Shown piece by piece: positions 4,608 to 20,639 of a DNA stretch of 20,639 nt (position 1 is its first letter; each line of letters starts with the position of its first letter). The DNA is from a virus. Location: positions 1-20,639 of the IMG/VR virus record IMGVR_UViG_3300037558_002077, one strand, 5' to 3'. A model generated the notes under the pieces. The model did not search any database and was not told the DNA's origin. It was given only the letters and a program-made list of their open reading frames with translations. Made by a program: the position numbers and the translations under genes.

Positions 4608-4639
4608 AAAAAAAATGAACCATTTTCACAGTTCATTTT
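4608..4639 (-). terminator. Terminator of the tmRNA
   Basis: Read on the minus strand, AAAATGAAC (4639-4631) pairs with GTTCATTTT (4620-4612) and runs into a T tract to 4608. The hairpin begins only 2 nt after the tmRNA discriminator base at 4642. Confidence 0.85.
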
Positions 4640-4641
4640 AG

Positions 4642-5024
4642 TGGAGGTGGAGGGTTTCGAACCCTCGTCTTGCTAGTCCCAACTATAGAGGACTACACGT
4701 TTAGGATAGTATTTTCTAATACTCCAAAATTTGATGACCATTTTTTAACTATTGTGATCAACACCCAATAGACCATTCGATTTTGGGTTCAATGGTAATC
4801 CACCTTTTTAGGAGTTTCTGTTTCTAGGTATTTCACTCTCTAACCCATTGTAGTAATAACCTTAGGATACTGCTACTTTAGAATCAACAGATACTAGACC
4901 CATTAATTCCATTTGTGAATAAACGTCTCCGTTTAAAAATATTCTCCATAGATTTAAGTGATAGGAAACATCTCACTACGTGCCCTGTTATAATTGATTA
5001 CTCCAATCAATTCCAGTCACCCCC
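4642..5024 (-). ncRNA. ssrA: Phage-encoded tmRNA (transfer-messenger RNA) with divergent tag
   Basis: tmRNA rescues ribosomes stalled on broken mRNA and adds a tag that marks the product for proteolysis. The tRNA-like ends are clear: 5' GGGGGUG (5024-5018) pairs with CACCUCC (4649-4643), one G-U, followed by discriminator A (4642). The T-arm is GAGGG-TTCGAAA-CCCTC (4666-4650), preceded by AAGAC. CCA is not encoded (CTA follows). The tag frame resumes at GGA 4930-4928 after UUAAAC and runs 22 codons to UAA at 4864-4862, beginning GDVYSQMELMG and ending SVDSKVAVS. The last codons and the stop sit in an H5-like hairpin (4850-4876): GTAGCAGTA pairs with TATTACTAC with one mismatch, stop in the loop. 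This supports the frame. Known Bacteroidetes tags are about 9 residues, begin Gly-Glu and end Ala-Ala, so this tag is longer and lacks the LAA end read by ClpX. It probably shares a transcript with the 59-aa gene just upstream. Confidence 0.92.
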
Positions 5025-6709: not shown

Positions 6710-6715
6710 ATATAG

Positions 6716-6794
<79 letters not shown>

Positions 6795-6880
6795 TACCGA
6801 AGGACGGACTCGAACCGTCACGGACATTACTGTCCAAGGGATTTTAAGTCCCTCGTGTCTACCAATTCCACCACTTCGGC
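6795..6880 (-). tRNA. tRNA-Leu (anticodon UAA)
   Basis: Type II tRNA of 86 nt with long variable arm: acceptor GCCGAAG/CTTCGGT, D-loop with TTGG, anticodon arm AGGGA-CTTAAAA-TCCCT, variable arm GGACAGTAATGTCC, T-arm GACGG-TTCGAGT-CCGTC, discriminator A. It reads UUA, the main Leu codon in this AT-rich DNA. CCA is not encoded (CAA follows). Confidence 0.95.
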
Positions 6881-7316: not shown

Positions 7317-7359
7317 AATTTATAATTTTAATTTAATTTATGTCAAAGAACGATAGTTG

Positions 7360-7431
7360 TACTCCGTAGGAGAATCGAACTCCTATTACCAGGATGAAAA
7401 CCTGGCGTCCTAACCGTTAGACGAACGGAGC
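7360..7431 (-). tRNA. tRNA-Glu (anticodon UUC)
   Basis: Complete cloverleaf: acceptor GCTCCGT/ACGGAGT, D-arm GTC-TAACGGTTAG-GAC, anticodon arm CCAGG-TTTTCAT-CCTGG, T-arm GGAG-TTCGATT-CTCC extended by flanking A-T, discriminator A. It reads GAA, by far the preferred Glu codon here. CCA is not encoded. Confidence 0.95.
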
Positions 7432-8825: not shown

Positions 8826-10844
8826 CTAAATTAGGGGTAAATTTCCTAAAAAAGTTAAAGAATCATTTTCGTACTTGATCTCCACTGTCGTGTTTTCTAC
8901 AATTTGACCTAATAAAATTTGATCACTTATAAAGTCTTCACACATATTTTGTATAATTCTCCTAATAGGTCTTGCACCATATTCCTCTTCAGAATTTCTT
9001 GAAAGAATTTCCTTATACACTGTTGGATGAAATTTTATATTGTAATTCTTATCTCTCAATCTACTCTTCAATTTGTTCATTTCGATAGTGACAATCTTCT
9101 TCAAAGACTTATTATCTAATTTATTGAATACGATTATATCATCAACCCTATTGAGAAACTCAGGACTAAATTGTTGTTTCAAAGATTTTCTAATTATAGA
9201 GTCTTTAACCTTTTCTCTATTAGTTCCATCGTCAAAACCTACACCACTACCAAAATCAGCAACTTTTTTAGCACCGATATTAGATGTCATGATTATTAAA
9301 GTATTTGTAAAGTTTACTTTTCTACCGAAAGAATCAGTTAAATGTCCTTCGTCCAAAATTTGAAGTAATAAATTAAAAACGTCTTTATGTGCCTTTTCAA
9401 TCTCATCAAATAGTATAACAGAGAAAGGATTGTTTTTAATTTTTTCTGTTAATTGACCACCTTCATCATAACCAACATACCCTGGTGGAGAACCAATTAG
9501 TTTTGATAAATTATGTTTCTCCATAAACTCACTCATATCAACCCTGATTATTTTTTCGGGATCATTGAATAGTGTTTCGGCTAAAGTTTTTGCGAGGTAA
9601 GTTTTTCCCACCCCCGTTGAACCTAAGAACATGAATGACCCAATCGGTCTATTAGAACCTCTAACACCAACTCTATTTCTTCTTATCGCTTTAGAGATTG
9701 TTGCGATGGCATCGTGTTGTCCGATAACCTTTTTCGTTATGTGGTTCTCTAAATTGAGTAAGTTTTTAGATTCTTTAGTATCGAGTTTATTGATGGGTAC
9801 ACCAACAGTATCACTTATCATTTCGTAAACATCATCAATATCGATAGGTTTCTTATTTTGTTTTTGTTCTTCATTCCATTTCCTTTTCTCAGTTTCCAAT
9901 TTTTTGAGGACGTTCTTTTCTTGATCTCTTAGATTTGCCGCCAGTTCATAGTTTTGGTCTTTAACTACTTCAAGTTTCTGAAGTTTAATGTCTTCCGCAT
10001 TTTTTTTCAATTTTTCTATTGAGTCAGGAACTTTCACAGTAATTTTCTTTTCAGAACCCAACTCGTCTAATATGTCAATTGCCTTATCGGGAAATTGTTT
10101 GTCTGTTATATATCTCTTTGATAATTTGACTATGGTTTCAATAACACCTTTAGTATATAAGACCCTATGATAATCCTCGTAAGATAATTTTAAGTTCTTT
10201 AATATTTCAGTAGTCTCATCAGATGTTGGTTCTCTAAGGATAATTTTTTGGAATCTTCTAACCAACGCACCATCTTTCTCAATGTTCTTTTTAAATTCAT
10301 CGAAAGTGGTTGCCCCAATACATTGTATTTCACCTCGGGCTAATGCGGGTTTAAGTATGTTTGCTGCATCCATAGAACCTGAAGCATTACCTGCACCCAC
10401 CATCGTGTGTAATTCATCAATGAATACAATTACGTTTGGTGCATCTTCTAATTCATTTAGTATTGCCTTGATTCTCTCCTCGAATTGTCCACGGTATTTT
10501 GTTCCCGCAACCAATGCCGTTAGATCAAGTGCCATAATCCTCTTATCTAACAAGTTAGTTGGACAGGTACCTTCTGTTATCATAATTGCCAATTTTTCAA
10601 CAAGTGCGGACTTACCGACACCCGCTTCACCGACAATAACAACATTATTTTTCTTTTTCCTTGATAGGATCCTCGCAATTCTCATTACCTCTTTATCCCT
10701 ACCAATAATAGGGTCAATCAAGCCCTCACTTGCAAGTTTTGTTAGGTCCCTTGAAAAATTATCGAGTACAGGTGTGTTACTGTTTTTCTTACCTTTTCTT
10801 TGAGTTTGACCCTCATCCTTGTCTTCATAAAAATCTATAGACAT
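8826..10844 (-). CDS. clpC: ClpC-like AAA+ unfoldase lacking the N-terminal adaptor domain (672 aa)
   Basis: Clp ATPases of this class unfold proteins and thread them into ClpP. Two AAA+ modules are intact. D1: Walker A GEAGVGKS at 72-79, pore loop KYRG at 116-119, Walker B VIVFIDE at 138-144, sensor GATT, arginine-finger RRF at 196-198. A short middle region holds a UVR-like motif (DQNYELAANLRDQE, about 296-309), typical of ClpC and not the long ClpB middle domain. D2: Walker A GSTGVGKT at 408-415, pore GYVG at 455-458, FDEIEKAH at 479-486, TSNIG at 520-524, sensor 2 GARPIRR near 632. GVGF at 534-537 is in the place of the ClpP-docking loop (V/I/L-G-F). The usual 140-150-residue Clp-N domain is missing; a 25-residue charged tail replaces it. 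No clpP is seen here, so host ClpP is the likely partner. Divergent from Hsp20. Confidence 0.93.
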   Translation of the reverse strand: MSIDFYEDKDEGQTQRKGKKNSNTPVLDNFSRDLTKLASEGLIDPIIGRDKEVMRIARILSRKKKNNVVIVGEAGVGKSALVEKLAIMITEGTCPTNLLDKRIMALDLTALVAGTKYRGQFEERIKAILNELEDAPNVIVFIDELHTMVGAGNASGSMDAANILKPALARGEIQCIGATTFDEFKKNIEKDGALVRRFQKIILREPTSDETTEILKNLKLSYEDYHRVLYTKGVIETIVKLSKRYITDKQFPDKAIDILDELGSEKKITVKVPDSIEKLKKNAEDIKLQKLEVVKDQNYELAANLRDQEKNVLKKLETEKRKWNEEQKQNKKPIDIDDVYEMISDTVGVPINKLDTKESKNLLNLENHITKKVIGQHDAIATISKAIRRNRVGVRGSNRPIGSFMFLGSTGVGKTYLAKTLAETLFNDPEKIIRVDMSEFMEKHNLSKLIGSPPGYVGYDEGGQLTEKIKNNPFSVILFDEIEKAHKDVFNLLLQILDEGHLTDSFGRKVNFTNTLIIMTSNIGAKKVADFGSGVGFDDGTNREKVKDSIIRKSLKQQFSPEFLNRVDDIIVFNKLDNKSLKKIVTIEMNKLKSRLRDKNYNIKFHPTVYKEILSRNSEEEYGARPIRRIIQNMCEDFISDQILLGQIVENTTVEIKYENDSLTFLGNLPLI

Positions 10845-11026: not shown

Positions 11027-11395
11027 ATGTTATTATTTAAAAAAGACCCATTTTTTAATTTGGTTGGTGAGTTCCTTAACGATCATAATGTATCTCATAG
11101 AGAATCAATAAATGTTTTAAGGAACGTTACAGAAAACGAATATGAATTAGAGTTCGTTTTACCTGGCCTTTCAAAAGAGGATGTTAATGTAGTCGTTGAA
11201 GACAATAAACTAAAGGTGTCTTATAAAGACGAAGAAAATGAAAATTCTTATACAAGATCATTCGATAGATCTTATGAATTACCCGAAGATGTTAATCAAA
11301 CTAAGATTAGTGCCAAGTCACAAGACGGTATTTTAAAGATTACAATACCGAAAGTAAAGAAGTCGTCTAAACAACGAACCATCTTAATCAAATAA
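11027..11395 (+). CDS. Small heat-shock protein, Hsp20/alpha-crystallin family (122 aa)
   Basis: Small heat-shock proteins hold unfolded proteins soluble for other chaperones or proteases. The alpha-crystallin domain spans about 30-115: ENEYELEFVLPGLSKEDVNVVVEDNKL with the typical PG turn, and the signature GILKITIPK at 101-109. The C-terminal I-x-I (ILI, 119-121) that mediates oligomer assembly is present. The N-terminal arm is short (about 28 residues), and the total is slightly shorter than most bacterial members. It is divergent from the clpC-like gene across 182 nt, which suggests joint control and a joint role in protein quality control. It is followed by a strong terminator. Confidence 0.93.
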   Translation: MLLFKKDPFFNLVGEFLNDHNVSHRESINVLRNVTENEYELEFVLPGLSKEDVNVVVEDNKLKVSYKDEENENSYTRSFDRSYELPEDVNQTKISAKSQDGILKITIPKVKKSSKQRTILIK

Positions 11396-15996: not shown

Positions 15997-17784
15997 ATGG
16001 ATAAACATAAATTAATACAGTTAAAGGAGTACGCTAAGATCATGAAGGATACTCCGTATGCCCTAAAAACGTATTTGACTACATATGATAACACAAAAAA
16101 GACATATGTACCATTAGAACTGTTTCCTGACCAAGTTCAATTACTTGAGGACTACGATAATTACAATGAAAATATTACTCGTAAATATAGACAGGCAGGT
16201 GTATCAACTGTAACCGCAGCATGGTTATCTAAAAGAATACAAACAGCAAAACCTGACAATCCCGAAAGAATTCTTATTATTGCGAATAAGAGAGATACCG
16301 CAATTGAGATGGCTAACAAAGTAAGAAGTTTCTTAGAACAGTGGCCTGAGTGGATTAACGTAGGTTTCTCCGCAGATAAAAACTCTGAAAGTCGTTACAG
16401 AATGAATAACGGTTGTGAGGTTAAAGCCGTCGCAACATCCGCAGATGCATTACGTGGTTATACACCAACAGTACTTGTATTTGACGAAGCGGCATATATT
16501 GAAGCGGGAGAAGACTTTTGGGCTGCGTGTATGGCATCTCTATCTACGGGTGGTAAGGTTATTTTAATTTCAACACCTAACGGACATGATCCGATATACT
16601 ACGGTGTTTATGATCAAGCACTAAGAGGTATGAATGACTTTAAAATTACAGATTTAAGATGGTTTAAAGATCCTCGTTATGCTGGTGATTTAAAGTGGAT
16701 ACGAGTTGATGATATTATTCATTATATGTTGAATAGAGAACAATATAATGATGACGAAATAATTTTAGAACAAGGTTGGAAGGGTTATGAGGATTTACTC
16801 GAAAAAGGATATAAACCCTATTCTCACTGGTTTGAGAATATGGCAAAAAAATTCAAATATGATAAGAGAAAAATCGCACAGGAATTGGAGTGTGACTTCC
16901 TCGGGTCTGGTGATGGTGTTATCCCAAACACCGTACAGGACATCATAAGAAAAACTATGATCAAGGACCCCATTGAAAAATATATGCAGGGCACTTTTTG
17001 GTTATGGAAAGAACCTATTGAAGGTCACAGATATATTATGGGTGTTGACGTATCCCGAGGTGATAGTGCCGATTCATCATCAATATGTGTTATTGATTTT
17101 GATGAAAATGAACAAGTCGCAGAATATGTTGGTAAGATCCCCCCTGATGATTTAGCGTCAATAGTTTATAAGTGGGGTACGTTATATAAGGCGTTTGTTG
17201 CTACTGACATAACAGGTGGAATGGGTATTGCAACATCTCGTAAATTACAGGAGATGGGTTATAACGACCAATATGTTGACGGTGTAAACACAAATGATAT
17301 TTGGAAGTATAACAAAAAAGCACAGGAAAAGATACCTGGCATTAATTTTAACAATAAAAGAACACAGATAGTTGCCGCTTTTGAGGAGAGACTTAGACAC
17401 GGTTTTCTTGTCAGATCCTCAAGGTTACTTAATGAATTAAACACATTCGTTTATATTAACGGTAGACCTAACCACATGAAAGGTGCTCATGATGACGCAA
17501 TAATGGCAATGGCGATTGCTATGTATGTGGGTGATGTTTGTTTTACTCAGTTAAAGAGAAACGACACCGCAAATAAAGCGATGTTAGATTCTTGGGTATT
17601 ATCTGAAAGAACATATGAGACTAAGAAATCGTTTTATTCCCATGGAACCGCGTTTGATGCAATTGGTTCTATGAAAACTGACCAAGGAACAATACCTATG
17701 AACCCTAATGGTGACGGTAATTTAAGTCTTGATCAATACAAAGAATATATGTGGTTATTCGGGGGTAGAAATAAACAGGTTTAA
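15997..17784 (+). CDS. terL: Terminase large subunit, T4 gp17 type (595 aa)
   Basis: It powers DNA packaging into the prohead and cuts the concatemer. ATPase domain: RKYRQAGVSTVTAAW with the variant Walker A RQAGVST at 65-71 (Val replaces the usual Lys next to Ser; the Arg/Gln form is common in this family), Walker B VLVFDEAA at 159-166 and coupling motif ISTPNG at 191-196. The nuclease domain begins near 340: VDVSRGDSADSSSICVIDF (first catalytic Asp at 351), FVATDITG (Asp 404) and HDDAIMAMAIA (Asp 499/500). Length matches gp17-like proteins (about 600). The portal gene follows 46 nt later, the usual phage order. No small terminase is recognised in this window. Confidence 0.95.
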   Translation: MDKHKLIQLKEYAKIMKDTPYALKTYLTTYDNTKKTYVPLELFPDQVQLLEDYDNYNENITRKYRQAGVSTVTAAWLSKRIQTAKPDNPERILIIANKRDTAIEMANKVRSFLEQWPEWINVGFSADKNSESRYRMNNGCEVKAVATSADALRGYTPTVLVFDEAAYIEAGEDFWAACMASLSTGGKVILISTPNGHDPIYYGVYDQALRGMNDFKITDLRWFKDPRYAGDLKWIRVDDIIHYMLNREQYNDDEIILEQGWKGYEDLLEKGYKPYSHWFENMAKKFKYDKRKIAQELECDFLGSGDGVIPNTVQDIIRKTMIKDPIEKYMQGTFWLWKEPIEGHRYIMGVDVSRGDSADSSSICVIDFDENEQVAEYVGKIPPDDLASIVYKWGTLYKAFVATDITGGMGIATSRKLQEMGYNDQYVDGVNTNDIWKYNKKAQEKIPGINFNNKRTQIVAAFEERLRHGFLVRSSRLLNELNTFVYINGRPNHMKGAHDDAIMAMAIAMYVGDVCFTQLKRNDTANKAMLDSWVLSERTYETKKSFYSHGTAFDAIGSMKTDQGTIPMNPNGDGNLSLDQYKEYMWLFGGRNKQV

Positions 17785-17830: not shown

Positions 17831-19654
17831 ATGGCCAAACAAAATCTAACAGTATATCAAAGACTTACAAAGGTGTTCGGGTTTACCGCAGAGAGACCTA
17901 CTACACCACAATATAAGTTCGATAGAGATCAAATTCTTAAAACAGATAGTAGAGAGGATTATGAGAAGGAGATGTTGCAACAACAACAGTCTGCATACAT
18001 ATCTGACAAGTGGACAAAACTTGATCAGTCACTTTATAATCAATCAGTATACTATGAACCAAATAGGTTAGCAGCATACTACGATTACGAATCAATGGAG
18101 TTTACACCTGAGATTTCTGCGGCATTGGATATATACTCTGAAGAGTCAACAACACTTTCAGAAAAAGGTGAAATCTTAACCATATATTCAGAATCTAAAA
18201 GAGTAAAAAATATTTTAGAAGATTTATTTTATAACATATTAGATATTAATACAAATCTACAAATGTGGTGTCGTGGTACTTCAAAGTACGGTGACAACTT
18301 CGTTTATTTAAAAATAGATCCAAGTAAAGGTGTTATTGGTTGTCAACAACTACCAAACATAGAAATAGAAAGACAAGAGGGGGCAGCATCACAAGTACAT
18401 AAGTCAGAACAACCTTCAGGTGTTCAACTACCGAGTAGAGAACTTAGGTTTACATGGAAAAACAAAGACATGGAATTCCAAGCTTGGGAGGTTGCACACT
18501 TTAGACTTTTAGGTGATGATAGAAAATTACCTTATGGTACATCGATGTTAGATAAGGTTAGACGTATATGGAAACAATTACTTCTTGCGGAAGATGCGAT
18601 GTTAATATATAGAACATCAAGAGCACCTGAAAGAAGAGTATTCAAAGTCTTTGTTGGTAATATGGATGATAAAGATATTGAATCATACGTACAAAGAATT
18701 GCAAACAAGTTCAAAAGAGATACTATAGTAGATCCAAAAAATGGTCAGGTTGATATGAGATATAACCAAATGGCTGTTGACCAAGATTATTTTATACCTG
18801 TTAGGGATCCTTCACAAACATCACCTATTGAAACTCTACCAGGAGCACAAAATTTAGGTGAGATTGCGGATATAGAATATATCCAAAAGAAATTATTAGC
18901 GGCACTAAGAATACCTAAGGCATTTTTAGGTTTCGAAGAAATAGTGGGTGAAGGTAAAAGTCTCGCATTGATGGACATTCGTTTTGCGAGAACAATCAAT
19001 AGAATTCAAAAATCATTGATTCAAGAACTTAATAAGATTGCATTAGTACACTTATATCTATTAGGTTTGGAAGATGAGTTAGATAATTTTACATTATCAT
19101 TAACTAACCCATCGGCACAATCTGATCTCTTAAGAATTGAACAATGGAAAGAAAAAGTAACTCTATATAAAGATGCAACTTCAGATCAATCACAAATAGG
19201 TATTCAACCTGTTTCACATACTTGGGCTAAAAAGAATATCCTTGGTATGAGTGATAATGATGTAGTTCTTGATTTACAACAACAACGACTCGAAAGAGCG
19301 ATGGGTGCGGAATTAGGTATTACTCAGAACATTATTAAACGAACGGGCATATTTGATGAGGTAGATAAGAAATATGGTATTCCTGAAGAAGAAAGACAAT
19401 CGATGGATGATTCAGGTCAATCCGCACCCGCAGATGGTGGGGGAGGTGATGACTTTTTATCGGGAGGTGGAGATAGTTCGCCACCACCGCCAGACGATGC
19501 ACCTTTAAGTGAAGGTCAAAAAACAAAAAAGACTAAAATATTAGGTGAATTGGGAGACGAAAAATTAGAATTTGATGATCTTTTTGATTCCGAGAAGGCA
19601 CAACGTAATATTTATGAGATAGAGAATAAACTCAAAGACATTATAAACGAGTAA
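17831..19654 (+). CDS. Portal protein, T4 gp20 type (607 aa)
   Basis: It forms the dodecameric portal ring at the head vertex through which DNA is packaged and ejected. Recognised from the gp20-like layout: an N-terminal segment with LDQSLYNQSVYYEPNRLAAYYDYESME and FTPEISAALDIYSEEST (about 58-105), a central wing/stem with WKNKDMEFQAWEVAHFRLLGDDRKLPYGTSMLDKVRRIWKQL split by linkers (about 209-251), RTSRAPERRVFKVFVGNMDD (about 260-280), DYFIPVRDPSQTSPIETLPG, and the crown region with AALRIPKAFLGFEE. The C-terminal 80 residues are Gly/Asp/Pro-rich (DDFLSGGGDSSPPPPDD) and then helical. The length is somewhat above T4 gp20 (about 520), mainly through this tail. The stop is 2 nt before the next ATG. 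Confidence 0.9.
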   Translation: MAKQNLTVYQRLTKVFGFTAERPTTPQYKFDRDQILKTDSREDYEKEMLQQQQSAYISDKWTKLDQSLYNQSVYYEPNRLAAYYDYESMEFTPEISAALDIYSEESTTLSEKGEILTIYSESKRVKNILEDLFYNILDINTNLQMWCRGTSKYGDNFVYLKIDPSKGVIGCQQLPNIEIERQEGAASQVHKSEQPSGVQLPSRELRFTWKNKDMEFQAWEVAHFRLLGDDRKLPYGTSMLDKVRRIWKQLLLAEDAMLIYRTSRAPERRVFKVFVGNMDDKDIESYVQRIANKFKRDTIVDPKNGQVDMRYNQMAVDQDYFIPVRDPSQTSPIETLPGAQNLGEIADIEYIQKKLLAALRIPKAFLGFEEIVGEGKSLALMDIRFARTINRIQKSLIQELNKIALVHLYLLGLEDELDNFTLSLTNPSAQSDLLRIEQWKEKVTLYKDATSDQSQIGIQPVSHTWAKKNILGMSDNDVVLDLQQQRLERAMGAELGITQNIIKRTGIFDEVDKKYGIPEEERQSMDDSGQSAPADGGGGDDFLSGGGDSSPPPPDDAPLSEGQKTKKTKILGELGDEKLEFDDLFDSEKAQRNIYEIENKLKDIINE

Positions 19655-19656
19655 TT

Positions 19657-20400
19657 ATGGAGACATTCGGAACAATTAAAAACAAAATATTAATAAAACT
19701 CACCGAAAGTTACGGTGATGATAAATTCAAAGAACACCTTAATAAGGTTTTTAGACCTATTATGGAAAATGAGTCTCTTAAAGAATTATATTCTTTATAT
19801 GAAGAGATAGAGACAATGTCTTTTGGAGATAAAGAAACAGCAATAATTTATGTGGATGAAATATCTAAAGTATTAAATACAAGATATGATAAGATGACAG
19901 ATACGTTCCACACAAGATTATTAAAGACGATAAATGAACATTTAAAGGATGTTGAGTGTAAACCAAATGAATTGTATGAACACTTAGATACTCTATTAAT
20001 TCCTGATACTTTAACAAACATATCAAAGAAAGTCTTGGCAAAGAAAAAACTTGTAGAACATCTTACAACTCCAAAGACGATTGAAAATGTTACATTTAAG
20101 TCAGTGAATGAAAACTTATTAAATTCAGTTTTAGTAAATAACTTTAACGTTTCATATGATGAACAGTTAACAGAAAATGAGAGGGAGAAATTGAAAGATT
20201 ATATGTCTTTAAGTGGAAAAGAGATCCAAGAAAAATTTTCTGAACTAAAGGAATCTGTATATGAAAAGTTAGATACACTTAGTGAGGGTGAGAAAGATTT
20301 CACAGAGAAATCTAAGCAAGTCAAAGACGAGGTAGGGGAAATGGGAGTAACCCGTTACAATCTATTTCGATTAGAGGATTTATCAAACAATCTAATTTAA
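19657..20400 (+). CDS. Hypothetical protein downstream of portal, possible prohead core/scaffold (247 aa)
   Basis: Family not recognised. Almost entirely helical and charged: leader METFGTIKNKILIKLTESYGDD with L-x-E, then long Lys/Glu/Leu helices and near the C-terminus KEIQEKFSELKESVYEKLDTLSEGEKDFTEKSKQVKDEV (about 188-228, broken here by natural heptads). In T4-like genomes the prohead core genes (67, 68, 21, 22) follow the portal, so a core/scaffold role fits position and composition. No protease motif is visible, so it is unlikely to be the prohead protease. It is translated 2 nt after the portal stop and ends at a terminator. Confidence 0.75.
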   Translation: METFGTIKNKILIKLTESYGDDKFKEHLNKVFRPIMENESLKELYSLYEEIETMSFGDKETAIIYVDEISKVLNTRYDKMTDTFHTRLLKTINEHLKDVECKPNELYEHLDTLLIPDTLTNISKKVLAKKKLVEHLTTPKTIENVTFKSVNENLLNSVLVNNFNVSYDEQLTENEREKLKDYMSLSGKEIQEKFSELKESVYEKLDTLSEGEKDFTEKSKQVKDEVGEMGVTRYNLFRLEDLSNNLI

Positions 20401-20407
20401 AACAATT

Positions 20408-20435
20408 AAAGTGTCCCATCGGACACTTTTTTTTT
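20408..20435. terminator. Terminator between convergent core-protein and bS21 genes
   Basis: AAAGTGTCC (20408-20416) pairs with GGACACTTT (20421-20429), followed by T to 20435. The T run overlaps the bS21 stop codon (20434-20436); on the minus strand the hairpin is followed by TTTAATTGTTTT, so it may act in both directions. Confidence 0.85.
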
Positions 20436-20631
20436 ACTTCTCTTCTTCGGTCCTAATTTTTTGAATGTAGATTGCCTTTTGTTTTTGAAGTCTTTTTTTA
20501 ACAGAGGGTTTTGTGAATTGTTTACCTTCTCTTAATTTGTTAATTTGTTTTGTTCGTCTAACCTTTTTTCTGAGTCTTTTTATTGCCGACTCAATTCCAC
20601 CTTTATCTTTATTTACTTTTATTATTAACAT
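20434..20631 (-). CDS. rpsU: Ribosomal protein bS21, Bacteroidetes type (65 aa)
   Basis: bS21 is a small basic protein of the 30S subunit near the 3' end of 16S rRNA. The sequence begins MLIIKVNKDKGGIESAIKRL and continues KKVRRTKQINKLREGKQF, then TKPSVKKRLQKQKAIYIQ; the FxKPSV-K/R-R block and KAxYIQ end are those of Bacteroidetes bS21. Length (65) and the run of Lys/Arg are normal. In Bacteroidetes, bS21 with bS18 and bS6 is known to occlude the anti-Shine-Dalgarno. Virus-encoded bS21 is known from several phage groups and may replace or compete with the host copy. Only 8 nt upstream are in the window, so its promoter cannot be judged. It ends against a shared terminator. Confidence 0.92.
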   Translation of the reverse strand: MLIIKVNKDKGGIESAIKRLRKKVRRTKQINKLREGKQFTKPSVKKRLQKQKAIYIQKIRTEEEK

Positions 20632-20639
20632 ACTAGAAT

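Follow-up and report, generated by a model that had tools for sequence, protein, structure and literature searches.

A Shine-Dalgarno-free bS21 gene in a T4-like phage fragment and its resemblance to a second bS21 class of the Flavobacteriaceae

The phage bS21 protein

Ribosomal protein bS21 is a small protein that governs which messages the ribosome initiates on and, among ribosomal proteins, it is the one most commonly carried by phages. In the Bacteroidota, Tyr54 of bS21 is the aromatic residue that blocks the anti-Shine-Dalgarno (anti-SD) sequence. A bS21 (rpsU-like) gene was analyzed in the virus record IMGVR_UViG_3300037558_002077, of which positions 1 to 20,639 are referred to here as the window. 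The gene is located at 20434..20631 on the reverse strand, starts with ATG and encodes 65 amino acids. Tyr55 of the product corresponds to Tyr54 of Flavobacterium johnsoniae, and Arg25 and Lys28 correspond to positions 24 and 27; the latter numbering is used below. The analysis covered this 20.6-kb fragment together with relatives that are incomplete contigs of up to 199 kb.

An earlier note, made from the DNA letters, had identified the product as a Bacteroidetes-type bS21 and had proposed phylogeny as a check. The family profiles, the nearest structures, the conserved tyrosine and the tree described below all agree with this identification. The protein matched Pfam Ribosomal_S21 (PF01165) with 38.6 bits (cut-off 27, E value 8.9e-10) and passed the curated cut-off of NCBIfam S21p (TIGR00030; 30.5 bits, cut-off 28.95), and its PHROG match is 'ribosomal protein S21'. 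In the PDB the top matches were two chains of Bacteroidota bS21, 9i5v_9 and 7jil_z (E of about 4e-9), whereas Firmicutes-type bS21 chains scored far lower (E 0.03 or worse). Tyr55 aligned to Tyr54 in a column that is invariant in alignment A1, and the window protein has both Tyr54 and the C-terminal QKAxYIQ motif, which cover the anti-SD. Tyr54 is retained in 25 of 30 distinct phage bS21 proteins and in the window protein. A separate group of phage bS21 proteins (L057, L064, L071, L080, L081) has neither Tyr54 nor the QKAxYIQ motif, and these proteins might leave the anti-SD free.

A scan of IMG/VR recovered at least 80 viral loci with relatives of the window protein, at identities from 100% down to about 50%, indicating that bS21 is a maintained phage gene. 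No relative was found among cultured phages at an E value of 0.001, where the only matches were five uncultured huge phage records.

Absence of Shine-Dalgarno pairing

The window ends 8 bases upstream of the bS21 start codon, and these last leader bases (20632..20639, reverse strand) read ATTCTAGT. Another contig, L002, matches the window at 100% identity across 6,203 bases, through the final base of the window, and its leader therefore stands in for the missing one. The remainder of the leader in L002 is TATTTATTATATATTCTAGT-ATG, in which the heptamer TATTTAT ends 13 nucleotides before the ATG. Pairing was calculated with an assumed 16S tail, UCACCUCCUUUCU. No SD was found in this leader (0.6 kcal/mol, as compared with about -13 kcal/mol or stronger for an extended SD) or in the 29 distinct phage bS21 leaders that were measurable, which had a median of 0.1 and a strongest value of -5.1 kcal/mol. 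When the same code was applied to Bacteroidota rpsU at 80 loci, the median was -17.9 kcal/mol and 85% were below -10 kcal/mol, corresponding to an extended SD. An SD resembling that of host rpsU was thus rejected for the phage leader.

The other genes of the window gave a similar picture, as did the relatives G001, G003 and G006. SD pairing of -5 kcal/mol or stronger preceded none of 19 window genes but was present at 26% of mock sites further upstream, indicating that SD-like sequence is depleted before the window genes. In the identical run, 53% of the genes of the T4 control had an SD; gene calls were based on open reading frames, with one simple caller applied to all genomes in the comparison. 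The A content at positions -20 to -1 before the window starts was 51%, compared with an average of 33%. The claims that this phage genome is devoid of SD sites and that its starts are A-rich, both made in the earlier note, were thus borne out.

Two classes of bS21 in the Flavobacteriaceae

The cellular sequences nearest to the window bS21, at 58-59% identity, are those of Mesonia and Salegentibacter, and both are second copies. Their genomes also encode another bS21, with an extended SD wherever the leader was readable. The family was represented by 199 genomes, and by our count from the table of matches 76 of them have at least two bS21 matches. An SD is missing from the second copy, which in many genera sits immediately 3' of rpoD, the primary sigma factor gene, recognized here by its sequence rather than by a family search.

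The Flavobacteriaceae thus have two classes of bS21, split by residues 24 and 27 and by the extended SD. SD pairing was at least as strong as -13 kcal/mol for 75 of 76 distinct canonical proteins, which have Asp or Glu at position 24 and Gly at position 27, and for none of 21 distinct proteins with Arg or Lys at 24 and Lys at 27 (one reached -9.8 kcal/mol); sequences entered the sample through their similarity to either the phage protein or a single second-class protein, and these proportions are not population frequencies. This division is new here, and no description of a second Flavobacteriaceae bS21 was found in the open-licence literature searched. Second-class loci with Arg24 and Lys27, usually beside a canonical, SD-bearing rpsU, are L082-L085, L100, L123, L126, L129, L219-L222 and L257-L260.

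The window bS21, with Arg and Lys at the equivalents of positions 24 and 27 and an SD-less leader, has the features of the second class. Arg24, Lys27, Tyr54 and the lack of an SD are shared with the second-class proteins of Mesonia, Salegentibacter, Gelidibacter, Gaetbulibacter and others, although the genes for the latter are chromosomal and often directly follow rpoD. The F. johnsoniae bS21 (7JIL; McNutt et al. 2023, PMC9976891) resembles the phage protein in length, in Tyr54, in the C-terminal QKAxYIQ motif and in its membership of the ribosomal S21 family. The phage bS21 differs from it and from the canonical class in having no extended SD and at residues 5, 24, 27, 28, 30 and 34.

Phylogeny of the phage protein

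The bS21 trees rest on about 64 alignment columns. When sequences from Gram-positive bacteria and E. coli served as outgroups to root the tree, the window clade was placed inside the Flavobacteriaceae, consistent with the Bacteroidetes affiliation predicted earlier, and 24 Tyr54-type phage proteins grouped with the second-class copies (support 100/99). The grouping of phage and second-class proteins was also obtained when both the outgroups and the Tyr54-less group were omitted (99/98) and when more rows were included (88/79). It is likely that the phage bS21 is related by descent to the second class, with support that is moderate and not secure.

Two results weigh against this kinship. In the first tree, which had no outgroup and included five Tyr54-less phage proteins, the phage proteins were split from all hosts. 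Furthermore, once columns 24 and 27 had been removed, the second-class host copies formed a group of their own, while a joint group with the phage proteins was neither shown nor rejected (p value of the approximately unbiased test, p-AU, 0.586). The shared residues could therefore be convergent. An origin from canonical host rpsU is less supported than the second-class kinship but keeps some probability. The possibility of an origin from a mobile host copy was also considered. However, the neighborhood of the second-class gene, next to rpoD, is stable across several genera, so the host gene does not look prophage-borne.

Gene arrangement and timing of expression

The bS21 gene is convergent with a head operon on the forward strand. 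This operon includes the genes for a T4-like large terminase (gp17, TerL; 15997..17784) and a T4-like portal (gp20; 17831..19654), both assigned by family match and both with TATTTAT immediately 5' of the ATG. Downstream of the portal gene lies that of a 247-residue hypothetical protein (19657..20400, forward strand), which faces bS21 and whose position is conserved in relatives. A terminator scan detected a hairpin and T-run at 20408-20429, between the convergent genes, that is readable on both strands and would serve as a two-way intrinsic terminator for bS21 and the head operon alike. In L028 and L029 the stem is altered on both sides with pairing preserved. An exact-seed inverted-repeat search, unlike the terminator scan, gave no match at 20408-20429. 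On its other side, bS21 is flanked by a divergent hypothetical gene that precedes the prohead protease gene, as seen in the identical contig L002. With its portal, large terminase and prohead protease, the phage is T4-like. In the group of the window and in two further groups, bS21 is a single reversed gene with these convergent and divergent neighbors. The nearest cultured relatives of the portal include Flavobacterium phage immuto (38% identity), whose head operon extends from portal through protease and has no annotated bS21. The virus infects Flavobacteria-like bacteria.

This arrangement has been published. According to Chen et al. 2022 (PMC9723584), Bacteroidetes myoviruses of TerL clades a-e, with genomes of 293-331 kb, have the same gene in the same place and orientation, expressed late, and the functional hypothesis of the earlier note was proposed there; the finding is therefore not new in kind. 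These myoviruses and the window phage share a single reverse-strand bS21 that has a hypothetical gene on either side and lies within the TerL, portal and prohead protease cluster, a Bacteroidetes-like bS21 with Tyr54, an SD-less host lineage, and Clp and Hsp20 genes. The examined text of PMC9723584 was not found to discuss the phage bS21 leaders or a second host bS21 class. It does report that the bS21 of Pelagibacter phage HTVC008M enters E. coli ribosomes (Mizuno et al. 2019, PMC6375957). The HTVC008M protein is likewise phage-encoded, but the host is proteobacterial and the likeness is one of description, not of sequence.

On the coding strand, TATTTAT was present no more than 40 bases from the start of 6 of 20 window genes, against 0.5 expected, and upstream of 30 of 142 genes in the relative G001, against 3.5 expected. 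In G001 it is found ahead of the TerL, portal, bS21, prohead protease and scaffold genes (the last named by position only), and a second phage group (L033-L055, L060-L079) likewise has it in the bS21 leaders. The bS21 leaders of L031, L052, L056 and allies are without TATTTAT. By eye, a host-like TAnnTTTG promoter sequence takes its place in the leaders of L056 and L073. A T4-like late promoter, TATAAATA, was not found for bS21; ATAAATA occurred at chance in these phages and was detected in T4, and in the T4 control the known TATAAATA appeared instead of TATTTAT.

TATTTAT is probably a late promoter element. Its occurrence before bS21 and before the TerL, portal, protease and scaffold genes suggests that bS21 belongs to the same late class as the head genes, in agreement with phage bS21 transcripts that appear late, alongside those of capsid genes (PMC9723584). 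The earlier note was correct that bS21 is convergent with the head operon and shares one terminator with it. However, the separate timing that it read from this arrangement was rejected as unsupported, given that the TATTTAT of bS21 is that of the head genes and that co-expression with capsid genes is reported in the published text cited above. TATTTAT frequently ends 0-20 bases 5' of the ATG, which makes very short leaders or leaderless messages plausible, although the leaderless state of a message cannot be shown from DNA.

A proposed displacement of host bS21 outside the feedback loop

F. johnsoniae ribosomes that lack bS21 have an exposed anti-SD, favor rpsU and initiate weakly on SD-less messages (McNutt et al. 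2023, PMC9976891). We propose that the phage bS21, as a late-class product, may take over the bS21 site of the 30S subunit from the host protein and yet be exempt from the SD-based feedback by which host rpsU is shut off, a proposal for which we see about as much promise as doubt. 30S subunits, whether new or exchanging, would take up the phage protein, which would close the anti-SD pocket, and the ribosomes would then be held in the state that initiates on SD-less messages. Because the protein fills the site and keeps Tyr54, we infer that translation of host rpsU, whose extended SD requires bS21-less ribosomes, would be lowered. The phage gene, which has no SD, would lie outside this limit and would not be shut off by its own success, so that its product should gain over the host protein and gradually displace it. 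It counts against the proposal that we know of no measured displacement by a Bacteroidota phage bS21 and found none in the open-licence papers searched. The link between residues 24 and 27 and the extended SD provides a concrete, testable account of how a phage copy could satisfy the ribosome outside host feedback, and it addresses the question of why phages so often carry bS21. A broader and more tentative extension is that distinct 30S populations in Flavobacteria arise from the use of two interchangeable classes of bS21, the one SD-autoregulated and the other SD-free, and that these phages carry the SD-free type to take over ribosomes, where occupation of the site would shut down host rpsU through its SD feedback and the phage copy would be exempt.

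The model of the earlier note and of PMC9723584, which the late expression reported there fits, is that phage bS21 reprogrammes 30S subunits to choose phage over host messages late in infection. Positions 5, 23, 24, 27 and 28 of the N-terminal helix do differ between the phage protein and canonical host bS21, and the phage starts are A-rich and SD-less. However, host messages in these bacteria are SD-less as well. Such starts alone therefore do not separate phage from host and cannot favor the phage; selectivity needs something more, and the suggested preference for phage starts that are leaderless or A-rich is unproven and logically weak. Moreover, the changes at positions 24 and 27 are common to the phage and second-class host proteins and so are not phage-specific. 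Reprogramming as the explanation is doubtful, while it is possible that, in addition to displacement, the altered N-terminal helix makes ribosomes prefer phage messages. Simple supply, in which extra bS21 would complete ribosomes made or damaged in infection with neither displacement advantage nor selectivity, is compatible with SD-less phage genes but leaves unexplained why the phage protein has second-class rather than canonical residues, and it is unlikely. A role outside message choice, either in counter-defence or as bS21 delivered with the virion, is raised in PMC9723584 and would suit a gene within the head cluster, but it is highly improbable, the conserved ribosome-contact residues being best explained by ribosome binding.

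Additional genes in the window

A full-length Rfam match to transfer-messenger RNA (tmRNA) was obtained at 4639-5024 on the reverse strand (68.6 bits, cut-off 47), which ARAGORN did not call. The tmRNA was not found in the searched stretches of G001 and G006, and a phrase search of the literature for phage-encoded tmRNA found no paper. The reverse strand also carries tRNA genes for Arg(tct) at 6715-6789, Leu(taa) at 6794-6880 and Glu(ttc) at 7359-7431. A ClpC-like AAA+ protein, encoded at 8826-10844 on the reverse strand, had no match to an N-terminal Clp domain among the families listed. It has a VGF loop at residue 535, and its gene adjoins an Hsp20 gene at 11027-11395. PMC9976891 speculates on bS21-directed proteolysis, and this protein is a candidate for that activity.
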